From: Cloeon dipterum
Taxonomy: Eukaryota; Arthropoda; Insecta; Ephemeroptera; Baetidae
Assembly: GCF_949628265.1 (NCBI RefSeq)
Contig: NC_088786.1
Location: forward strand, 30,463,681-30,527,680
Direction: 5' to 3'
Length of the DNA stretch: 64,000 bases
Shown here: piece after piece, positions 31,136 through 53,663 of the stretch
Numbering within the stretch: position 1 is the stretch's first letter
Layout of the letters: every line of letters starts with the position of its first letter
Translations under genes and position numbers: made by a program
Notes under the pieces: generated by a model
Databases searched by the model: none
Told to the model about the DNA's origin: nothing
The model's input: only the letters and a program-made list of their open reading frames with translations

Positions 31136-34100
31136 ATGGGCCGCAAAATGTTGGTTTCTTTGGTTTTTGGTTTGTTTTTGTTTCAGCTGATACTGGCCAC
31201 GCCGACTGGTGAGTTACCATTTTTTTAATCTTTCCTCTCTCTTTAAATTAACACGCCAGAGCACTTAATTCGGTTTTTTATCTCTGAGTTTATTTTTAAT
31301 GTTTTTTTGCGCCAAATTTATTTCATATTTTCCTCAACTCTCATGACCTTGCACTTTGCAATAAGCTCAACAAAAAGCCTGTCTTGGACTGGCTAACTAA
31401 GAATATGATTATCATCACCAGCATTATTTTCGCCACAATTAACCTTGTGAGAATGTACCTTGTAGAGAAAAAAACTCATTCCTCATTCGAAAGTGATTTA
31501 AAAGATCTGAGCATTTTTAACTGTTTTGGTGGTTGAATACAATAGATCAAAACATTTTGCTTCTTTCAGAATCACAAAATGTTGATAACTTTTTACTCAA
31601 ATCTAGGGTTATCAACCTTAAAGGTTAAACACTCAAGGTCATTTTTCTTGCGTGCCTGTTGCTAAACCATTACATCCTTTAACCGCATCTTTTTTCTCTC
31701 GCTAGTTTCTAGCAATCCAACCCAGCTTCCAGCAAATTTTATTCCAGCTCCCTCGGAAGGCAGCAGTCTCACCAAACACACGCACATGTTTCCCTTGCTC
31801 AGAGAAAAAAGACAAGTTAGACAAGGTGGCTGCCAAAAGTAAATTCAAACAAATTCCTATCGGATCGCAAGAAAAGTAATCTTTTCCGTGTCGTAATAGT
31901 GCCAGCGAATTTGCCTGCTACTCTGGAGAGTGTGTGGCGCTTAGCTCTATTTGTGACGGCACCCAGGATTGCGGAGACTGGAGTGACGAGACTTACGCGC
32001 TTTGCAGAACTGCTCAGTTCGTACATTATAAATTTTTTAATGAAAATATGTGGTTTTTCATTATTACACGCATTACACGTATTATTAAATAATTAAGAAA
32101 TGGGCAGAAAACCCACATTATTTTACAAATGGAATTAAAGATTGGGAACTGGACTTTACACTAATGAGTTTATATTGTAGGTGTCCCAATTACGCGTTTC
32201 GATGCAGCTATGGCGGCTGCATAGAAAAAGAGCGCGCATGTGATGGAAACATGGATTGCTGGGACAATTCTGATGAACTTTTGCCCCGGCGCCAGTGTGT
32301 GTCAACACCAAAGCCACAAAACCCACTACTCAAACAGCAATGCGAGAGGTAGTTGGAAGTCAAATGATTTTTAATATAATTTTTATGATTGTGCTACAAT
32401 TGCAGCAATAATTCAGGATTTGGTTGCTTGGACGGCACTTGCATTGAAGGGGAAAAAGTGTGCGATGGAAATATTGACTGCCCGGACGGCTCTGACGAAA
32501 CTGTGACCCAGTGCAGAGCGGTCAGGTAAAGTCCCATTCCCTTTATCAGAGCTCTAATTCTTAACGTGGTTAATGCGCGCTGCAGATGCCCTTCTAACAC
32601 ATTCCGGTGTCAGTATGGTGGCTGCATCAATAGAGATCTTCGCTGCAACGGTCAGCAGGACTGTGCCGACAATTCTGATGAGGACGATTTCCTGTGCGGC
32701 TGCAGGGTGCCCAATTTTCCAGAGAAGTCATTTTACAATGTGCTTGGCTGCCCTGGAGACAGACTGGGACAGGCAAACCCGAATGATCCCAATCTCTCTG
32801 ATATTTGCAAGGTATTTTGAGGTTTTTTAATACAAAATTTTCGAAACACTTATGCAAATCAATTGATGGATTTCTAGGGCTACCCTGGTGTTTCTTTAGC
32901 ACCTCCCTACACAGGTATCGGACTTCGCTGTGAACCTCCATATGAACTGCCCAACTCAAGGACGAGAGAAAAAGGATCTGCCGCCGTTTCCTACTGCATC
33001 AACGGTAAATGGAGACCCATTCTGCCGCTGTGTCGGGCGCCTCCACCTCGCCCGCAAGTCAACACCCCAAAACCTGTCACCAGACCAGGTCCTGTGTCAT
33101 CCAGACCAGTACAGGGCAACCGACCTGTGACTCCTGTGCCTGTGGTTGCACCTGTTACTGCACCAGCACCTGGTGATTATTTTTCGCACAAATAGAAACT
33201 AATTCAAAATGAGATGAAATTAACAAACAAATTTTTTTCAGCATAATTTTTTTTTATTATTAAATTAAAATGATGTTAAGAAGCTTCCAATTTGAGAAGA
33301 GAGCCTTGCATCAAATTTGTTTTGTGTTGCAGTTGTTGCAGCTGGCCCCAAGAAATGTCCTGCTTTAATTTTGGAAACTGTGGAGCCAGAGTGCTTCCTG
33401 CAAGGTCGCAGAGTCACCTGCCTTGACCCTGTTGCCATTGGCACTGAAGCAAGGCTCAGTTGCAAGGCATTCCATTCTGCTGAGCCTGATTTCACCAAAA
33501 TCACCTGCAAAGACACTGGATCCTGGAATAGGGAGCCATTTAAATGCAAACCAGGTTAGTACCTTTTTGCCTTTCGTCAATTATTGCTTGCTCGACAGTC
33601 ATCATATTATATGGAGAATTTTAAAAATCTTTTAAAGTGTTAAAATGTGCTAAAATTTTTAAAAAGATTTATATTTTAATCAATTATAAGTACAAGGTTA
33701 TTTGAGTTTAAAATTGAGCAAACATTGCGATGCAAATAGCTTACAAGACCAATAAAAAAGTGAAAGTGCGATGTGGTCTCTGCCTCGTTCATCACAACAC
33801 TGATCATGGGGCCTTTCTCTAGTGATCCGCAGGTCTATAGTTGCAATTATGCCCCACCCTGGGCAGGGATATCGACCTAGATTTGTTGATTTAACGGAAT
33901 ATCAGTTAGAGTACGAAATTAACTGGGGGCGTAGCTCAGATGGTAGAGCGCTCGCTTAGCATGCGAGAGGTACCGGGATCGATACCCGGCGCCTCCAAAT
34001 CTCTTTTTAATATATTTTATTCAAAATTAAAAATTTGTAGTATTCTGCAGCATTCATTTTTCGTATCAATGTTTAATAATTAAAAGTGGGAAACTATTAG

Positions 34101-35792
34101 TCAGCTTGTTACATAAATCCAAAGGTACTATTATTTTAACACTTTATTATTAATATTTTCAATATTTTCTAATTAATTTAGCACTGATGAATACCAAGTC
34201 TACATAATTTGACACAAAATCCATAATCGAGTAATTTGTGTATCAACATTGGGTATATTAGGATTGAAATTTTGACGCCCCTTTAAAACTCGTAGATTTG
34301 ACGCTTTCCCTTAAATAAAAATGGCTTTTAACTTGATCTTAACTTTTGGAATCACACCATCGCTTTATGAATCATAACGGATAGGCCTAAAGTTAGCAAT
34401 TTTTTGCAAAAATGAAATTTGGAGGCGCCGGGTATCGATCCCGGTACCTCTCGCATGCTAAGCGAGCGCTCTACCATCTGAGCTACGCCCCCAGTTAATT
34501 CTGCACTAAATTCATTTCTGCTTTCTGGTCAAAGATTCAGGTCATTTGCCCTGAGCGTCTCGCAACTTGTTGTGCCAATCGGGTGTGGCGATGACCGCTC
34601 TCTTTCGCATTCGCACATCTAGAGCCTCCCCCCCCCCCCCCCCGCGTACTTGTGTCAAGTTCCTTAGCGAGCTATGCTAATCGCATGTTCATAAATTCAT
34701 CTGCATTTTTACACTTTGCCCTGCAGAATGTGGAGAGCGCGTGCCAAAGGGACAGCTCTTTGTTGTGCAAGGTCGGGAGGCTGAAGTCGGGCAGTTCCCC
34801 TGGCACGCTGGAGTTTATTACATCAAGGATTTGAAGTCCCCGGATCCTCCGAAATTCTGGTGCGGAGGTTCACTCGTTAATCGAAACCTTATCATATCAG
34901 GTATATTTCCTTTGCCAATTTATGAGAACATTTTTGGAAAAAATACTGCTCATAGCGGCTCACTGTTTCTGGGACGAGGCGCTTGGAAAACCTCGCGCCG
35001 CCGATAACTTCAAAATTGGTCTTGGGAAATTCTTCCGAGACTGGACTGCCAAAACTGATTACACTCAGCTAAGAGACGTAAGATACTAGCTTTATATTCC
35101 GCTGGAAAAATTTAAATGGAATAATTATGTTCTGCACAAAGATTCGGCGCATTGACGTGCACCCTGACTACCGAGGCTTCTCCAGGTCGTATGTGGCTGA
35201 CATTGCAGTTGTTTGGATCAAGGAACAAGCAATTTTCACGCCATTCGTGCGGCCGGTGTGTGTCGACTGGCAAAATACGTTTGAAAGGGAGCAACTGGTT
35301 CAAGGAAATGTTGGGCAGGTACTCTCCACTCCACACGCCATCCCTACGAGCATGCACTGACCATAATTTATAAAATAAGGTTGCTGGTTGGGGCAAGGAC
35401 GGCAATGGCAGCCTCACCAATACCCTGCAGTTCTTAGAAGTTCCCTATGTCGAGTACTCTCAGTGCGAGAAAATTGTGCCGCCTGAGTTCAAACCTCTCA
35501 TCACAACTGACAAAATATGCGCTGGGTACACCAATGGTAATTTCTGCCTCAGAATCCTTGCATAAGTTATTAATATTTAATCTAATATACAGGATCAAGC
35601 GTGTGCAATGGAGACAGTGGCGGCGGTCTCACGTTTGAAAAGAACGGACGTTGGTTTGTGCGCGCCATCGTGAGCGTGGGTCCTGTGAAGCAAGGCGCTG
35701 GCACTTGCAACCCCAATCAGGTCACCGCGTACACTAGGCTCTCAGTGTACCGAGACTGGATTGAGGACATGCGTGATAGCGATTCGACATAA
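31136..35792 (+). CDS. modSP: Modular serine protease (ModSP/HP14-like), Toll-cascade initiator
   Basis: Thirteen exons: 31136-31208, 31706-31838, 31900-32016, 32181-32348, 32406-32525, 32586-32811, 32878-33172, 33333-33554, 34727-34900, 34956-35077, 35142-35318, 35380-35536, 35593-35792 (727 residues). Order: signal peptide ([12 protein letters not shown]), four LDL-receptor class A modules each ending in a D-x-SDE type motif (one per exon in exons 3-6), a sushi-like module, a Pro/Val linker, a second Cys-rich CCP-like (Wonton-position) module, then a trypsin-fold domain. The catalytic triad is present: AHC, ADIAV and GDSGGG. Residue 189 (chymotrypsin numbering) is Ser, not Asp, so it is not trypsin-like. 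The mature N-terminus VVQG follows Leu-Phe, fitting self-activation after a non-basic residue as in ModSP/HP14. Known relatives sense the signal from peptidoglycan and glucan receptors in haemolymph and start the Toll protease cascade. Confidence 0.93.
33765..33890. other. Unassigned GC-richer block in ModSP-like intron 8
   Basis: A GC-richer island directly upstream of the first tRNA-Ala. It contains inverted GATCA/TGATC arms (around 33803-33828) and a CCCTGGGCAGGG stretch. Read on the minus strand it is followed by a T6 run. I could not match it to a known RNA family with confidence. Confidence 0.2.
33925..33997 (+). tRNA. tRNA-Ala (anticodon AGC), copy 1, intronic
   Basis: A 73-nt cloverleaf: acceptor arm GGGGGCG/CGCCTCC (one G-T pair), D arm starting TAGCTCAGATGG, anticodon loop CTTAGCA with AGC, T arm ACCGGGATCGATACCCGG, discriminator A. 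A T5 pol III stop follows. It lies in sense inside intron 8 of the ModSP-like gene. It is identical in sequence to copies 2 and 3. Confidence 0.96.
34420..34492 (-). tRNA. tRNA-Ala (anticodon AGC), copy 2, intronic and antisense
   Basis: The exact reverse complement of copy 1 over all 73 nt, in the same intron 422 bp away and opposite to the host gene. A T-run follows on the minus strand at about 34405-34412. The 5' flank AATTAACT is also shared with copy 1, so the inverted match is at least 81 bp. Confidence 0.96.
34628..34643. repeat. Poly-C tract
   Basis: A run of 16 C bases in ModSP-like intron 8, about 80 bases before the acceptor of the first protease exon. Its true length may vary or be misassembled. 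Confidence 0.7.
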
Positions 35793-36106: not shown

Positions 36107-36179
36107 GGGGGCGTAGCTCAGATGGTAGAGCGCTCGCTTAGCATGCGAGAGGTACCGGGATCGATACCCGGCGCCTCCA
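36107..36179 (+). tRNA. tRNA-Ala (anticodon AGC), copy 3
   Basis: A third identical 73-nt tRNA-Ala, 315 bp past the ModSP-like stop codon, followed by a T6 pol III stop. Its 5' flank (ATTAACA) resembles that of copies 1 and 2, which points to local duplication including upstream sequence. Confidence 0.96.
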
Positions 36180-45500: not shown

Positions 45501-48500
45501 TGGACTGCAGCAGCTCCGACGAACTGCGCGCCATACGCAGTTCAGACACGAACGACGAACTCGACGCACTTTGCTACCCTAAGGAAATCACAAACGAGCA
45601 CGCGGTGCAAAGCAGCTTGGAGGTCGGCGAGGAGAGCGACGATGAAGTAACGGGCGATCTCATTTCGGACGAGGACATCGAGGAATTGCTTTCGGACACT
45701 GACAATCACATGAATAATCTAACACCGGTATAAAAAGACTTGAAACTTTCAATGAAAAAAAATGAAAACAAATCCTATCGTAATCAAGCTTAAATTAAAA
45801 TACCAAAAAAAATCCAGATGGGTGGTGTAAAAGCACCATCGACGACGTCATCCGGATCGTCTTGCGACGGTGACTCGGTTATCTACCTTGGGCAGAGGGA
45901 CACATACAAAGGGGTGGAAGAGTTGGTGGTGACGGCTGAAGAGTCTCTTTGCCTCCAGGCGGCCGAGAGTGCCCGCTCGCTAGAGCTGCCTGTGCCGCAG
46001 CATGCCAGTTCCTTTGTTAGCTTTTCACCGCCGTCGATGGAAAGGACGCCAGCAGAACCCTTGGTCATCGACACACAACAACAGCCGGCACCCCGGTGAG
46101 CACAAAAAATTCATTTTTTCTGGGTCAAACGTCTGAAAGTTATTTTTCACTGGAATTGTAGATGTATCTAATTATTGCCAGTTGAAATTAAATAGAGCTT
46201 CCTTTTGGCGTACAGCAACTAGCAGAAACTATTGGAGCAGGAAAAAATCAATAATAGAGCTTGCTTTACCCTGAAGAAGCTGCATTTAATTTAAATTGAC
46301 GTCCTCGTGTGTTTCTGCCTTAATTGGCATTTAATCTAAAAGTAAAATATTTGTTTTATTACTTGGAAAAATACTGTAGCGACCTTAGTCCTTCGACCGA
46401 CTATTTTATAATTAGTCAGGTCTAGGAGAGTTCGACAACGTGTAATTTTTAATTCTCTGACCATTAACTGATTTTAAAAATTAACTTCCAGAAGTTCGAA
46501 ATGAATTTACCATTAAATAAATAAAGCGAAATTCGATTTTTGTCAGCCTGGTGATCTCCAAAATATTTTCATAAAATTGCCCTGTCACAACTCTGAACCA
46601 TCAGGAGATTAATGCTCCTTCTCATTTTGATATTATCATTAATATTTTATTATTAAATGGAAATCAACTGAAAGATTTAACCATCAATTCCAGTTCAAAT
46701 TCTGCCGACTCTGGAGTGTGCTCTCAGCCGGAGGTACTGTGCAGGCGGTCTCCGTGTGGCGCACCTGGCGCGTCCGCAATCGTCGCCATTGACCTGGGCA
46801 CCACGCACAGTGGCTACGCGTACAGCGTGTGCAGAGAGCCTGGCAGACAAGTGCACTTCATGCGCAGATGGGAGGGTAAGGTTTTAAAAATGTTCGCCGA
46901 ATATCGTTTGAGATACAAGTTTAGGAGCGGATTCGGGACTTGTGAACCACAAGACGCCGACTGCGCTCTTGCTGACCCCCACGGGTGCCTTCCACTCCTT
47001 TGGCTCCACGGCGCGCGATTTCTACCACGACCTGCCGCAAACTGAAGCTCGAAAGTGGCAGTACTTCGAGAGATTCAAAATGTGCCTGCACCGAGACACA
47101 GTAAATTTATTTTTTTTTAGAAAATAGTTCATTTAACATGAGTAAAAATTAAGAATTTTAAAACTTTTATCTACGAGAAAAAATATAAATTCTGCCCCCT
47201 ATAGGAATTGCACCGAGACACCCCAATCGCAGCTTCCAACGGCAAAACGCAGCCAGCTCTCGTCGTTTTCGCCCACTCGCTAAAACACTTTAAAGAGCTG
47301 TCCATGCGCGAGTTGAACGAACGGTGCGGACAGAACAACGCGCCGGACGCGTCGGACATCAGGTGGGTCGTCACCGTGCCCGCGATCTGGAGACAACCCG
47401 CCAGACAGCTCGTGAGGGAAGCTGCTTATCAGGTTAGATAGTCGCTTCTCAATGGGCGGAAGAATAGGAAAATATTGACTTTGCAATTTAAAGGCCGGTT
47501 TGTGCAACGCTGAAAGTGCGGAACGACTTCTGATCGTGTTGGAGCCAGAAGCGGCGGCTGTCCAATGCCGGGAACAACTTTTGAACGAACACTCCCAGTT
47601 AATTCGGAAAAGCGGAGCCTCTTCAAAGTCAAGGTGAGATTAAAATTTAATTATTTTTAAAAAAATGGCTGCCAAAGAAATTGAATTTTGAATCAGTTGA
47701 TTTTTGTGTTCTATATGAGCTTCAGCCTTGAAATTATTTCTATGCCGTAACTTTACTTAATCCGAGGAAACGCTCGTTCACACACACAGTACGAAAATCA
47801 TCTCCCATATGGTCTAGCGGTTAGGATTCCTGGCTTTCACCCAGGCGGCCCGGGTTCGACTCCCGGTATGGGAACTTTTTGCCGTCTTTTCGAAGAAAAC
47901 GACTTTGTAACTCGATCTGATCTCACGGCCATCAAAAAATACTTATTTTTACGAATCTTTAATAAAAAACAATTAAAAATTCATGCGTGTTGCAGCTCGA
48001 GCAACTCGTCGGACAGCGGCAGCAACAACAGCAGCCTCTCGCTTACCGACTCGCCCGAGCCATTGACCCCGGTTCGATTTTTGGTGGCCGACTGTGGGGG
48101 TGGCACCGTCGATATTACGCTGCACGAGCTATCAGGCCGCGATGCGACGCTAAGAGAGCTTTTGCCCGCCACTGGAGGGCCTTTCGGAGCCACAGGTGAG
48201 CAAAATCAATTTTGGACTCGACGCGGCGAGCAAGGGAAAAATGCCTTCGCTTCAAGAAAGAAAAACCGACTGGGGTATTTATCTCGGATTTGCATTTTCG
48301 CAGGGGTCGACCGCGAGTTTGAGTCGCTCTTGGCGGCGCTCTTCGGATCCGACCTGATGGTCCAGTTTAAAGAGAAGAGGCCGGCTGCCTACACGGAGCT
48401 GCTGATGGCCTTCGAAGGACGCAAGAGGTGCGTCGGACCCCTGAAGGACCACCCTGCAAATATTTTCCCGCCCTACGCGTTTGTCGACTTTTTCCGCAGG

Positions 48501-50186: not shown

Positions 50187-53100
50187 TTAACTGTTCGACT
50201 CAAACACTCCCACAGCAAGCAGGACGTTTCTCCTTGTGTAGTGCAAGTTTAACAAGGGTGTACTTTTGGTCGCGTAGCTACGAAGCATGTAGCCACCCTG
50301 ATTGTCGCCCCGCTTGATGTCTGGGTTGTGGGTGACGTTCACGTCTTCAAGCGCTATCTCTTTGGCCAGTCTCTGGAAGTCCCACAGCTTCGCTGTGCAG
50401 TCAAGTGAACCTGTAAATCGGAAGGAACTTGGCGTGAGAAACGAACAAAAATCAAGTTGCTCGAGGAATCGTCAATCGTCAGGCTCATAAGTGTGATAAA
50501 TCGAAATCACAAAAATCATACGAACGAGACATTAAATAATCATAGCACTAATTTTCAAGGTCCAAGTATCTGAACCAAACAATTTATCAGTCATCCCTTA
50601 TTTTTATTAATTGAATTCAACATTGTTTACCTGACGTTAAAATGTTGCCGCATCGGGAGAATGCCAAGGTGTGAATGGGTCCAGTGTGACCAGAAAGCTC
50701 AGCCAGAAGATGACCGTGCGCCAAGTCCCAGAGAAGCACATTTTTGTCTGCGCCGGCAGAAGCGAGAAATCTTCCTTCCACTGAGAAACAAAGGGTGTAG
50801 ATCGGTGCCTTATGACCAGTCATCAGGCGAACGTGGTTTCCCGTGACGCAATCCCACAAGCGAACGGTCCTGTCACTTGAGCCAGTGGCAATGTAATTCG
50901 AGTTTGGATGAAACTGAACGACCTACAAAAATTTCACATGTCAGACTCCGTACCATTTTTAAAGTGATAAGAAATTGTTGTGAAATCAATGCTCATCTGT
51001 CTGGCTTTAATCTTGCCCTTTTTCCAAGGAAACCCAAGGAAAAATTTCATACGAACGAGACAATTCTAATCATTGCCTTCAATCTGAATCTAGCGTCTCT
51101 TAAAGACTTACATCGACATCTGAAAAGTGCCCTGAGAAAATTCTCAGTGGTTGAGGATTGTCCGTGCACCAGAGACGAGCGGTTTTGTCGTGTGAGGAAG
51201 TGGCAAAGTAGAATCCATGAGGTGAAAACTTGACGCTCCACACAGGAAAACAATGGCCTTTATACACAACTAGGCAATCCCAAATTTGTAAACTCCAGAG
51301 GCGAACTGTGGGGGCAAAAGTAAGTTAGTAAAATCAAATTAATTTCAAGCTGAATGATTGAGTCTTACTTGAACAGTCTTCACTGCAGGAGAGAAGCATT
51401 GTGCGGTCAGGACTGAAAGACATGGTGTAAACTGGTCCGTGGTGTCCGATTAAAGTTTTTGTCGTTTCAGCAGACTTTTCATCCATCATTCGGACTAGAA
51501 CATCTTCAGCCTCTTTGTCGATATCCGCCAAGAGTTCAGCGCTTTTCATCGCTCGCAGTTTTTGCGGTACAATGCTCCAAACTTTAATGGAAGAGTTACT
51601 GAAGCCTACCGCCAACATACTGCTGTCCTCGGCAAACTCCGCGCTTGTCACTCTGATTAGTAGAAGTTAATTGAAGTTAGCGCACAGAATTAAAAATCTT
51701 ACGAATGAGGGGAGTTCAGCAAGGTGTAACAGCAAATGGAGGGAAGGGTTTCTGGACCAAGGTTTACTCTCTTGGAAGCCTCACGGAGTGCCCGGACTTT
51801 CTCTTGCTTATCAAAGTCTTTCAGCTCTGGCAGAGGCATCCTGTCAACCATGGGAGCGTTGGGGTCCGTTTTGGACTTTTTGCTAAAGATGGGGTCTCTC
51901 TTTGCCTTCTTCTTTTTGGGTCGGTCATCTCCATTGTCAGGTTCCTCCTCCTCTTCTAGCTGCATTAATTGCAGATCTGGCTCTTTCAGCAAGCCATAAT
52001 AGACACGAGCCTTATTGTCTGCAAGAACATAACATTATCAAATGGTATTCTCAAATCAGAGATTTATGAAGGAAACAGTTGAATGGAGCACTCATAATGG
52101 ATAGCTTTAATCAGAGGTCATACGAACGAGACATAAATAAAATCATTGAAAGCTGAATGAGATAAGAGCAAAAAGATCCAGCGCTTACCTTGCCTTGTGG
52201 CTTCCCCAACCATTGCTCCAGCAGTGGCGTCAATTTGTTGTTTGTTTCTGGCAACGCCTTCGTACATATCAAAGTATAAGTGCTCCTGCACAATGTTGGG
52301 CACAACTGACTTCTTTTTCTCTTTCAAGTGTCTCTTCAGAATCGACAATGTGTCTCTTGACATGCGAATAATAAACTCGTTGGAGCTAAAACATTGGTTT
52401 TAGAACTGCAAATTTAGGCAAAGAGACTAGGATATTACTTGAACGTTTCAGTGAGCTCATTGTCCTTTAAGTGGTTTATTTTAGTGACCTGAGCTAATTT
52501 TTTCAAGTCATCCTGGTAGTAATCTTCCTGCTCAGGAGCGAATTTCTGCATGAACTTGATGGCCATTCGCTCATGGCCATTGAAGACCAGCTCCAGGTAC
52601 ATGTGCACAAATACTGGATACAATATTGTACCTAATTCATGCTGAAAAATCAAAATAAGAAAAATTGCTTTCACCAAGAAAAAATTAATCTACCTTGTAA
52701 ATATCCAGTGAACTTTCAACAAAATTTTTGAGATCATTGTAAGCGCCTTCATAGGCCACAGGGTCCCCTTCACTTTTGTAAGCAGACAATACGCTGCTCA
52801 CTTCAGATTCGGAATGCATAGCACCGACGTCCAGAGATGTTAAGTCGGAAAAGTTAACTTCCTTTTTCAGAATCTCCTCAGTTCCCTAAGGAATTGAATA
52901 GAAATTGTTAAAATTTTGTGATGTACAAACTCCACTTTTAAATCCTCACCTTCAAATTATATTTCCTCAACAGCTGCAGAACCGCAAGCAGGGCATTTTT
53001 GTCTGCTGGTGTTTTAGCATCGATTTTCTCTAGTTTTGGATCAACTGTCGACTGCTGCGGTTGATGATGATGCTGCTGCTGCTGCACCACATTGGATAAA

Positions 53101-53663
53101 ACTACGGTCTTCTGTTGGACAACGGTGGGAACGATTGTTTGTTGTTGAGGCATGACAGAAGGGGCAATTTTCTGCTGAGACACGACGGTCTGAACTAGAG
53201 TTGGCTGCTGCGAGAGAATCGTGGTTGGAATTGTCGATACAACAGTCTGCTGCTGAGGGACAATGGTGGACATAACTGACTGCTGCTGGTGGGGAACAAC
53301 ATTGGTCACAACTGTCGTGGGCTGCTGTTGGACAATGTTGGTCATGATGGTCTGAGGGACAGCGGTCGTCGTTTGCATCACAGATACGGGCGTTGGAACG
53401 GTAGCCGCAGGTTGAGGAATAGAGACCACCGAAGGGACCGGCGCTGCGGCCACTGGAGCCGGGGTTGCGATAGTCGGCATTTGTGGTGGGGCGATTGCGT
53501 TTACCGCAGGTAAGTCCACAGTGGTCGTCGTGGGCATCGGAGGGGTTGCAATAGCAGGAGATGAAGTGTTAGGGGTCACTTGTTCGGCGGAAGGCGGTGT
53601 CGCCGACGATGCGTCTTGCTCCGCGTCCTGCTGCATCGCTGTAGCACTCGGATTTTCAGCCAT
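50187..53663 (-). CDS. TAF5: TFIID subunit TAF5 (WD40)
   Basis: Nine exons, 5' to 3' on the minus strand: 53663-52950, 52885-52695, 52641-52439, 52385-52189, 52018-51703, 51652-51369, 51305-51112, 50922-50631, 50410-50187 (about 871 residues; the exon 2 edge is uncertain by one base). A long Gln/Val/Thr/Pro-rich N-terminus (about residues 1-215) precedes a LisH-like helix (LLAVLQLLRKYNLKGTEE), the conserved TAF5 N-terminal domain (HELGTILYPVFVHMYLELV), a basic KKKKAKR patch and six readable WD40 repeats with GH...W(D/S) spacing (SEDCSIRLWSL, SSHDKTARLW, SSDRTVRLWD, GADKNVLLWD, SLDCTAKLWD). The C-terminus STPLLNLHYTRRNVLLAVG matches the family. TAF5 scaffolds TFIID in the nucleus. Three introns carry guide-like snoRNA sequences. 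Confidence 0.95.
50478..50548 (-). ncRNA. Candidate U30-like C/D snoRNA, copy A (TAF5 intron 8)
   Basis: On the minus strand: C-box-like ATGATTA (50543-50537), then TGTCTCGTTCGTATGA (50531-50516), then a GTGATTT box and a TGTGAT/ATCACA hairpin, then CTGA (50482-50479). The 11 bases GTCTCGTTCGT are complementary to the conserved 18S rRNA ACGAACGAGAC. With ATGA as D' box, the box+5 rule points to the same A that vertebrate U30 methylates. No good terminal stem seen. Boundaries are approximate. Confidence 0.5.
51003..51077 (-). ncRNA. Candidate U30-like C/D snoRNA, copy B (TAF5 intron 7)
   Basis: On the minus strand: ATGATTA (51073-51067), the shared guide TGTCTCGTTCGTATGA (51062-51047), a TTTTTCC/GGAAAAA hairpin, then GATTAAAGCC. 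GGC at the 5' side can pair with GCC at the 3' side, but a clear CTGA box is lacking. It may be a decayed copy. Confidence 0.4.
52103..52154 (-). ncRNA. Candidate U30-like C/D snoRNA, copy C (TAF5 intron 4)
   Basis: The best-formed copy. On the minus strand: stem AGCTTT (52154-52149), C-box-like ATGATTT (52146-52140), guide TGTCTCGTTCGTATGA (52133-52118), D box CTGA (52114-52111) and closing stem AAAGCT (52108-52103). The two stem arms are perfect complements and sit where a C/D snoRNA terminal stem should be. At about 52 nt it is short for a eukaryotic C/D snoRNA. Confidence 0.55.

Follow-up and report, generated by a model that had tools for sequence, protein, structure and literature searches.

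Box C/D snoRNAs encoded in introns follow a general pathway in which splicing and debranching are followed by exonucleolytic trimming of the intron down to the C/D core bound by protein, and the spacing from box D to the downstream 3′ splice site is of a typical length. In the kink-turn, G3, A4, and U5 of box C stand opposite A4, G3, and U2 of box D, and G6 of box C pairs with C1 of box D. The described snoRNA closest to the elements reported here is SNORD30 (U30), whose site we take, as did the preliminary description of this locus, to be Am1383 of human 18S rRNA, and whose sequence presumably carries the core UCUCGUUCG upstream of box D′. One table lists human SNORD30, hosted by SNHG1, for 18S position 1383, printed there as C1383, and for 28S A3804 (PMC6466398), and another lists it for 28S A3804 only (PMC8881200). 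The consensus of boxes C and D is given as RUGAUGA and CUGA (PMC5389607), and 50-100 nt has been used as the C-to-D range for box C/D snoRNAs (PMC8817022). Departures from CUGA have been described, as AUGA serves as the D′ box of yeast U18, in which UAUGA has been linked to the methylation of two adjacent nucleotides (PMC5389607), and as the D box in a small fraction of Dictyostelium box C/D snoRNAs (PMC8817022) and in two genes of Entamoeba, whose C-box consensus keeps G6 (PMC3542256). Paralogous box C/D snoRNAs usually occupy separate introns of a single host gene (PMC8178906).

The window analyzed here is a stretch of 64,000 nucleotides from Cloeon dipterum, and its positions are used throughout. 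The coding part of the host gene occupies 50187-53663 on the minus strand, with nine exons, 871 aa, and GT..AG borders at 8/8 introns, and the host is identified as TAF5 because the product of the spliced model carries TFIID_NTD2 and WD40 domains. Introns 1-8 measure 64, 52, 53, 170, 50, 63, 189, and 220 nt, such that only introns 4, 7, and 8 exceed 64 nt. These are the introns in which the preliminary description, with correct intron numbering, had noticed a common 16-mer, TGTCTCGTTCGTATGA, on the TAF5 coding strand. The 16-mer has three exact matches on the minus strand, at 50516-50531 in intron 8 (copy A), 51047-51062 in intron 7 (copy B), and 52118-52133 in intron 4 (copy C). With up to three mismatches allowed, the same three places alone are found in the window, all of them exact, and shuffles (n = 100) give a mean of 0.32 such matches, with 1/100 reaching three. 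Across the whole assembly (190,111,064 bases), TGTCTCGTTCGTATGA has three exact matches, all in TAF5, and the reversed control has none. When the three copies are aligned, most invariant columns belong to box C, to the guide with D′, or to ATGAG, and a few isolated ones are scattered elsewhere. We propose that the three long TAF5 introns each encode one member of a set of paralogous box C/D snoRNAs, ~65-91 nt in size, and we assign a probability of about 0.8 to the reading that all three are working guides for 18S Am1383 with matched AUGAUU/AUGA boxes. Elsewhere in the window, Rfam places three tRNA genes of equal score (59.8 bits) within 2.3 kb, at 33925-33997 (+), 34420-34492 (-), and 36107-36179 (+), and a fourth at 47803-47874 (63.6 bits).

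The 18S rRNA of this genome lies on contig C5, where the target segment is present at four places and where Rfam confirms 18S, 5.8S, and partial 28S on one unit. With 18S numbered from the start equivalent to vertebrate UACCUGG, the 11 guide bases adjacent to D′ pair without mismatch to 18S 1379-1389 in all three copies (guides at 50520-50530 in copy A, 51051-51061 in copy B, and 52122-52132 in copy C, all on the minus strand). The 11-base complementarity reported earlier is thereby recovered against ACGAACGAGAC in the genome's own 18S. It had also been suggested that, with ATGA as D′, the box+5 rule selects the A of the SNORD30/U30 site, and the sequence agrees, as the fifth base from D′ faces A1383 of this 18S, the position listed for human SNORD30. 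Within the same rDNA (L014 and L019), 28S copies appear by eye to be interrupted by R1/R2-type retroelements, and the 18S of L013 differs from that of L014 in at least one base.

Taken alone, the complementarity is modest. An 11-nt Watson-Crick run anchored at D′ is equaled by 17/5000 shuffled guides when compared with 6,894 bases of rDNA pieces, and under looser scoring, in which G-U pairs and mismatches are allowed, the D′ guide is reached by 4/60 shuffles. These figures, together with the location of every copy in one gene, could be reconciled with a regulatory or splicing element common to the three introns whose complementarity to 18S is coincidental. Such an element would not, however, explain why boxes C, C′, and D are positioned as box C/D anatomy and intron processing demand, nor why the distance from box D to the 3′ splice site resembles that of U14 in the same genome, as described below, and we consider it very unlikely.

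The boxes of the three candidate snoRNAs, all on the minus strand, occupy directly observed positions. Copy A would span 50480-50548 and yield a mature RNA of ~69 nt, its ends estimated as the C-to-D span plus about 5 nt on each side. It carries box C ATGATTA at 50537-50543, box D′ ATGA at 50516-50519, box C′ GTGATTT at 50504-50510, and box D ATGA at 50485-50488, the last ending 74 nt before the 3′ splice site. Copy B, with estimated ends at 50988-51078 (~91 nt), carries box C ATGATTA at 51067-51073, box D′ ATGA at 51047-51050, box C′ AAGATTA at 51008-51014, and box D ATGA at 50993-50996, ending 70 nt before the 3′ splice site. Its D′-C′ spacer (51015-51046) contains a predicted hairpin, TTTTTCC..GGAAAAA, which could draw D′ and C′ together and which folds no better than shuffles (55/200 fold equally well). 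Copy C, with estimated ends at 52087-52151 (~65 nt), carries box C ATGATTT at 52140-52146, box D′ ATGA at 52118-52121, box C′ CTGATTA at 52108-52114, and box D ATGA at 52092-52095, ending 73 nt before the 3′ splice site. The C-to-D spans of 59 (A), 81 (B), and 55 nt (C) are within the usual box C/D range, and ATGATT precedes the 16-mer by 6, 5, and 7 bases, respectively, matching the 5-7 bases given in the preliminary description. That description's guide anatomy, with ATGA as D′, is likewise supported by the sequence; it named no box D, which is supplied here as the second ATGA. Downstream of D′, each of the three introns contains exactly one further ATGA, followed by G, and its assignment as box D, 70-74 nt before the 3′ splice site, is a consistent choice across the three copies.

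For copy C, a different anatomy follows from the AGCTTT/AAAGCT pair that had been put forward as a perfect terminal stem, in which box D would be the CTGA at 52111-52114, beside that stem and coinciding with the first four bases of the C′ box assigned above. The six-base arms are indeed present and perfect, and CTGA matches the D-box consensus. However, arms of this kind are expected by chance, since 974/2000 shuffles of the intron hold at least one such pair, and the intron itself contains two arm pairs of this length and spacing. As a terminal stem, moreover, the pair would enclose a C-to-D distance of only ~36 nt, would leave the guide not adjoining box D, would set U6 of box C opposite C1, and would have no counterpart in copies A and B. 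This anatomy was rejected, and its probability is judged to be extremely low.

The positions of the boxes were compared with shuffled sequence. When the flanks were dinucleotide-shuffled 20,000 times, no shuffle gave the three copies a common 6-mer of any sequence at the offset of box C, and no shuffle gave all of them ATGATT 3-10 nt upstream. By the same shuffling, all three copies had ATGAG 60-80 nt ahead of the 3′ splice site in 1/20,000, ATGA 65-80 nt ahead of it in 63/20,000, and a common 5-mer of any sequence, its positions spread over no more than 6 nt, in 375/20,000. For box C′, GATT occurs in the C′ region of all three copies in 28/20,000 mononucleotide shuffles (46/20,000 if GATG is also accepted), a count to be read with the C′ boxes having been picked after the sequence had been seen.

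U14 (SNORD14) served as an internal control from the same genome. The Rfam U14 model (RF00016) gives two genome matches, of 36.6 and 36.3 bits, both below the cut-off of 64, and a third, weaker match in the same locus (28.3 bits, E 0.014). The three matches lie within 1.85 kb on contig C2 (L034 241-317, 1501-1583, and 2001-2089) and carry boxes GTGATGA and CTGA, assigned by eye, with the CTGA of the middle copy just beyond the end of the Rfam match. They appear to be located in introns of one gene, whose exon frames look eIF4G-like by eye only. In U14, the end of box D is separated from the 3′ splice site by 73, 78, and 66 nt, also by eye, compared with 74, 70, and 73 nt in the TAF5 copies. 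Since these distances are alike, the TAF5 copies are placed like an accepted intronic box C/D snoRNA of this genome, and since U14 is also found three times in one locus, triplication is not peculiar to TAF5. The two sets differ in their guides and in their boxes; because U14 carries GTGATGA/CTGA, the unusual boxes of the TAF5 copies are not common to it. The U14 scores also indicate that Rfam is insensitive in this genome, as the model reaches 36.6 bits against a cut-off of 64.

The strict RUGAUGA/CUGA consensus is missed in all three C/D pairs of the TAF5 copies, in which box C is AUGAUU(A/U), box D is AUGA, and the key pair is swapped to U-A. The G-A, A-G, and U-U positions are preserved in 6/6 proposed box pairs, each of which has U6-A1 as its last pair. 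As the copies are paralogues, the six U6-A1 observations are not independent events; within each copy, C versus C′ and D versus D′ are separate elements. The boxes would form a matched non-consensus set of AUGAUU (C), AUGA (D and D′), and C′ with GAUU, in which the Watson-Crick pair beside the U-U and two G-A pairs is predicted to be U-A and not G-C. A limited, non-exhaustive literature search yielded no description of a joint change to U6 and A1.

These same boxes could be regarded as signs of decay, in which the boxes have drifted as the family dies and the copies no longer yield stable RNA. Besides the C and D boxes being off consensus, the terminal stems are weak and the second guides are at chance level. 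Stems adjoining the boxes are matched by 230 (A), 416 (B), and 288 (C) of 2000 shuffles, the longer external flanks pair no better than shuffles (1711, 1300, and 874 of 2000, respectively), and the whole-molecule folds are unexceptional (z of -1.34, -1.41, and +0.23). A stable terminal stem is reported to be missing in about half of Dictyostelium box C/D snoRNAs (PMC8817022). Under decay, the 16-mer, ATGATT, and ATGAG would not have stayed the same in three introns that otherwise align poorly, nor would the two sides of the kink-turn pair have changed in concert, and we find this reading quite improbable.

The second guides, located upstream of box D, were compared with the rRNA of the genome, in which the 28S pieces are incomplete and partly interrupted. 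Their runs of 6, 7, and 7 nt are at chance level, with 4608 (A), 2612 (B), and 2440 (C) of 5000 shuffles as good, and on these rRNA pieces they were rejected as rRNA guides. The second guide of copy B (50997-51007, minus strand) was also considered as an accessory guide, as it can form 10 bp, two of them G-U, with a segment of 18S lying a little upstream of the main target duplex (1359-1368); 120/1000 shuffles reach this pairing, and the candidate was dropped. The variation of the second guides between copies is compatible with genuine box C/D snoRNAs whose main role is other than methylation of 18S A1383, for example in pre-rRNA folding or on another RNA, which would be reached through either the shared guide or the second guides. 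A preprint that studied Drosophila S2 cells also lends itself to this reading, in that, comparing human with fly, it describes the Nm region 1383-1668 of human 18S as unique to human, in a statement that does not name A1383 (PMC13228274). The invariant element of the TAF5 copies nevertheless adjoins D′, and its 11-bp duplex aligns box+5 with a position that is listed as methylated in human, which makes a different main role unlikely.

Searches for further members of the family gave the following results. Rfam SNORD30 (RF00088) has no match in 50300-52300 at E ≤5 and none in the genome at E ≤0.001, the controls likewise giving none. The missing match carries little weight because the U14 model also stays below its cut-off in this genome. 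A search with RF00533 produced no match, as did its controls. The best Rfam match at E ≤5 in 50300-52300 is snoR64, at 50905-50999 on the opposite strand (26.7 bits, cut-off 45), and was set aside. A canonical SNORD30 elsewhere in the assembly was sought as TCTCGTTCG with CTGA within 2 nt, and this combination occurs at 13 places, compared with 21 for the reversed control; only 1/13 has RTGATG within 90 nt upstream, and it is located in a 135-aa open frame. For a fourth copy, the pattern of box C, guide, and TGA has five matches, of which three are the TAF5 copies and two (L007 and L008) lie in open frames, and a looser pattern has 12 matches, the three TAF5 copies and nine others that were only counted, compared with 13 in the control. 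No other candidate guide for the A1383 site was found in the assembly by the patterns used.

On the reading preferred here, of three working paralogous snoRNAs, TAF5 introns 4, 7, and 8 would be trimmed by exonucleases to the C/D core after splicing, and the shared D′ guide would pair over 11 bp with 18S 1379-1389, placing fibrillarin on the ribose of A1383. From the nucleotide sequence, we infer that the copies are transcribed as snoRNAs, assembled into RNPs, processed, and used in methylation. As in SNORD30, the core UCUCGUUCG lies upstream of D′ and box+5 falls at 18S 1383. The TAF5 copies differ in being three paralogues in TAF5 with AUGAUU/AUGA boxes, whereas human SNORD30 is hosted by SNHG1 (PMC6466398), and in having D guides that match rRNA at chance level only, whereas human SNORD30 is also assigned 28S A3804 (PMC6466398; PMC8881200). 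With the C′/D′ of yeast U18 they share a D′ of AUGA preceded by U (UAUGA); the C′ of U18 has an extra base (AUGAGUGA; PMC5389607), whereas the C′ boxes of the TAF5 copies lack the insertion and carry U6, and the targets differ. Because D′ is preceded by U, as in yeast U18, C1384 is a possible second site of the TAF5-intron guides, and the UAUGA D′ may lead to additional methylation at this adjacent nucleotide. AUGA replaces CUGA in a minority of Dictyostelium and Entamoeba D boxes (PMC8817022; PMC3542256), and the C-box consensus of Entamoeba keeps G6 (PMC3542256), whereas box C of the TAF5 copies carries U6, which restores a Watson-Crick pair.

The preliminary description had called three copies in one host gene, with TAF5 as the host, a new arrangement. 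This was overstated, as several paralogues per host are ordinary for box C/D snoRNAs (PMC8178906) and a U14 triplet exists in the same genome. No snoRNA hosted by TAF5 was found in print in a limited literature search. The kind of gene proposed is well known, and the TAF5 triplet with its box variant appears worth testing. A broader proposal, in which the copies represent a lineage-specific box C/D class with G-C replaced by U-A in both C/D and C′/D′, present in triplicate in TAF5, acting as the sole A1383 guides, and methylating both A1383 and C1384, is tentative and on balance doubtful.

If expressed, the TAF5 copies would provide this animal with guides for the SNORD30 site, though the Drosophila preprint calls the region human-only relative to fly (PMC13228274), and the distribution of the A1383 mark across arthropods would become testable. 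Genes of this sort may escape searches built on the consensus because of their coordinated U-A boxes, and no Rfam match to the TAF5 copies was obtained; the boxes may also offer a natural test of the tolerance of Snu13/15.5K for a changed kink-turn pair.
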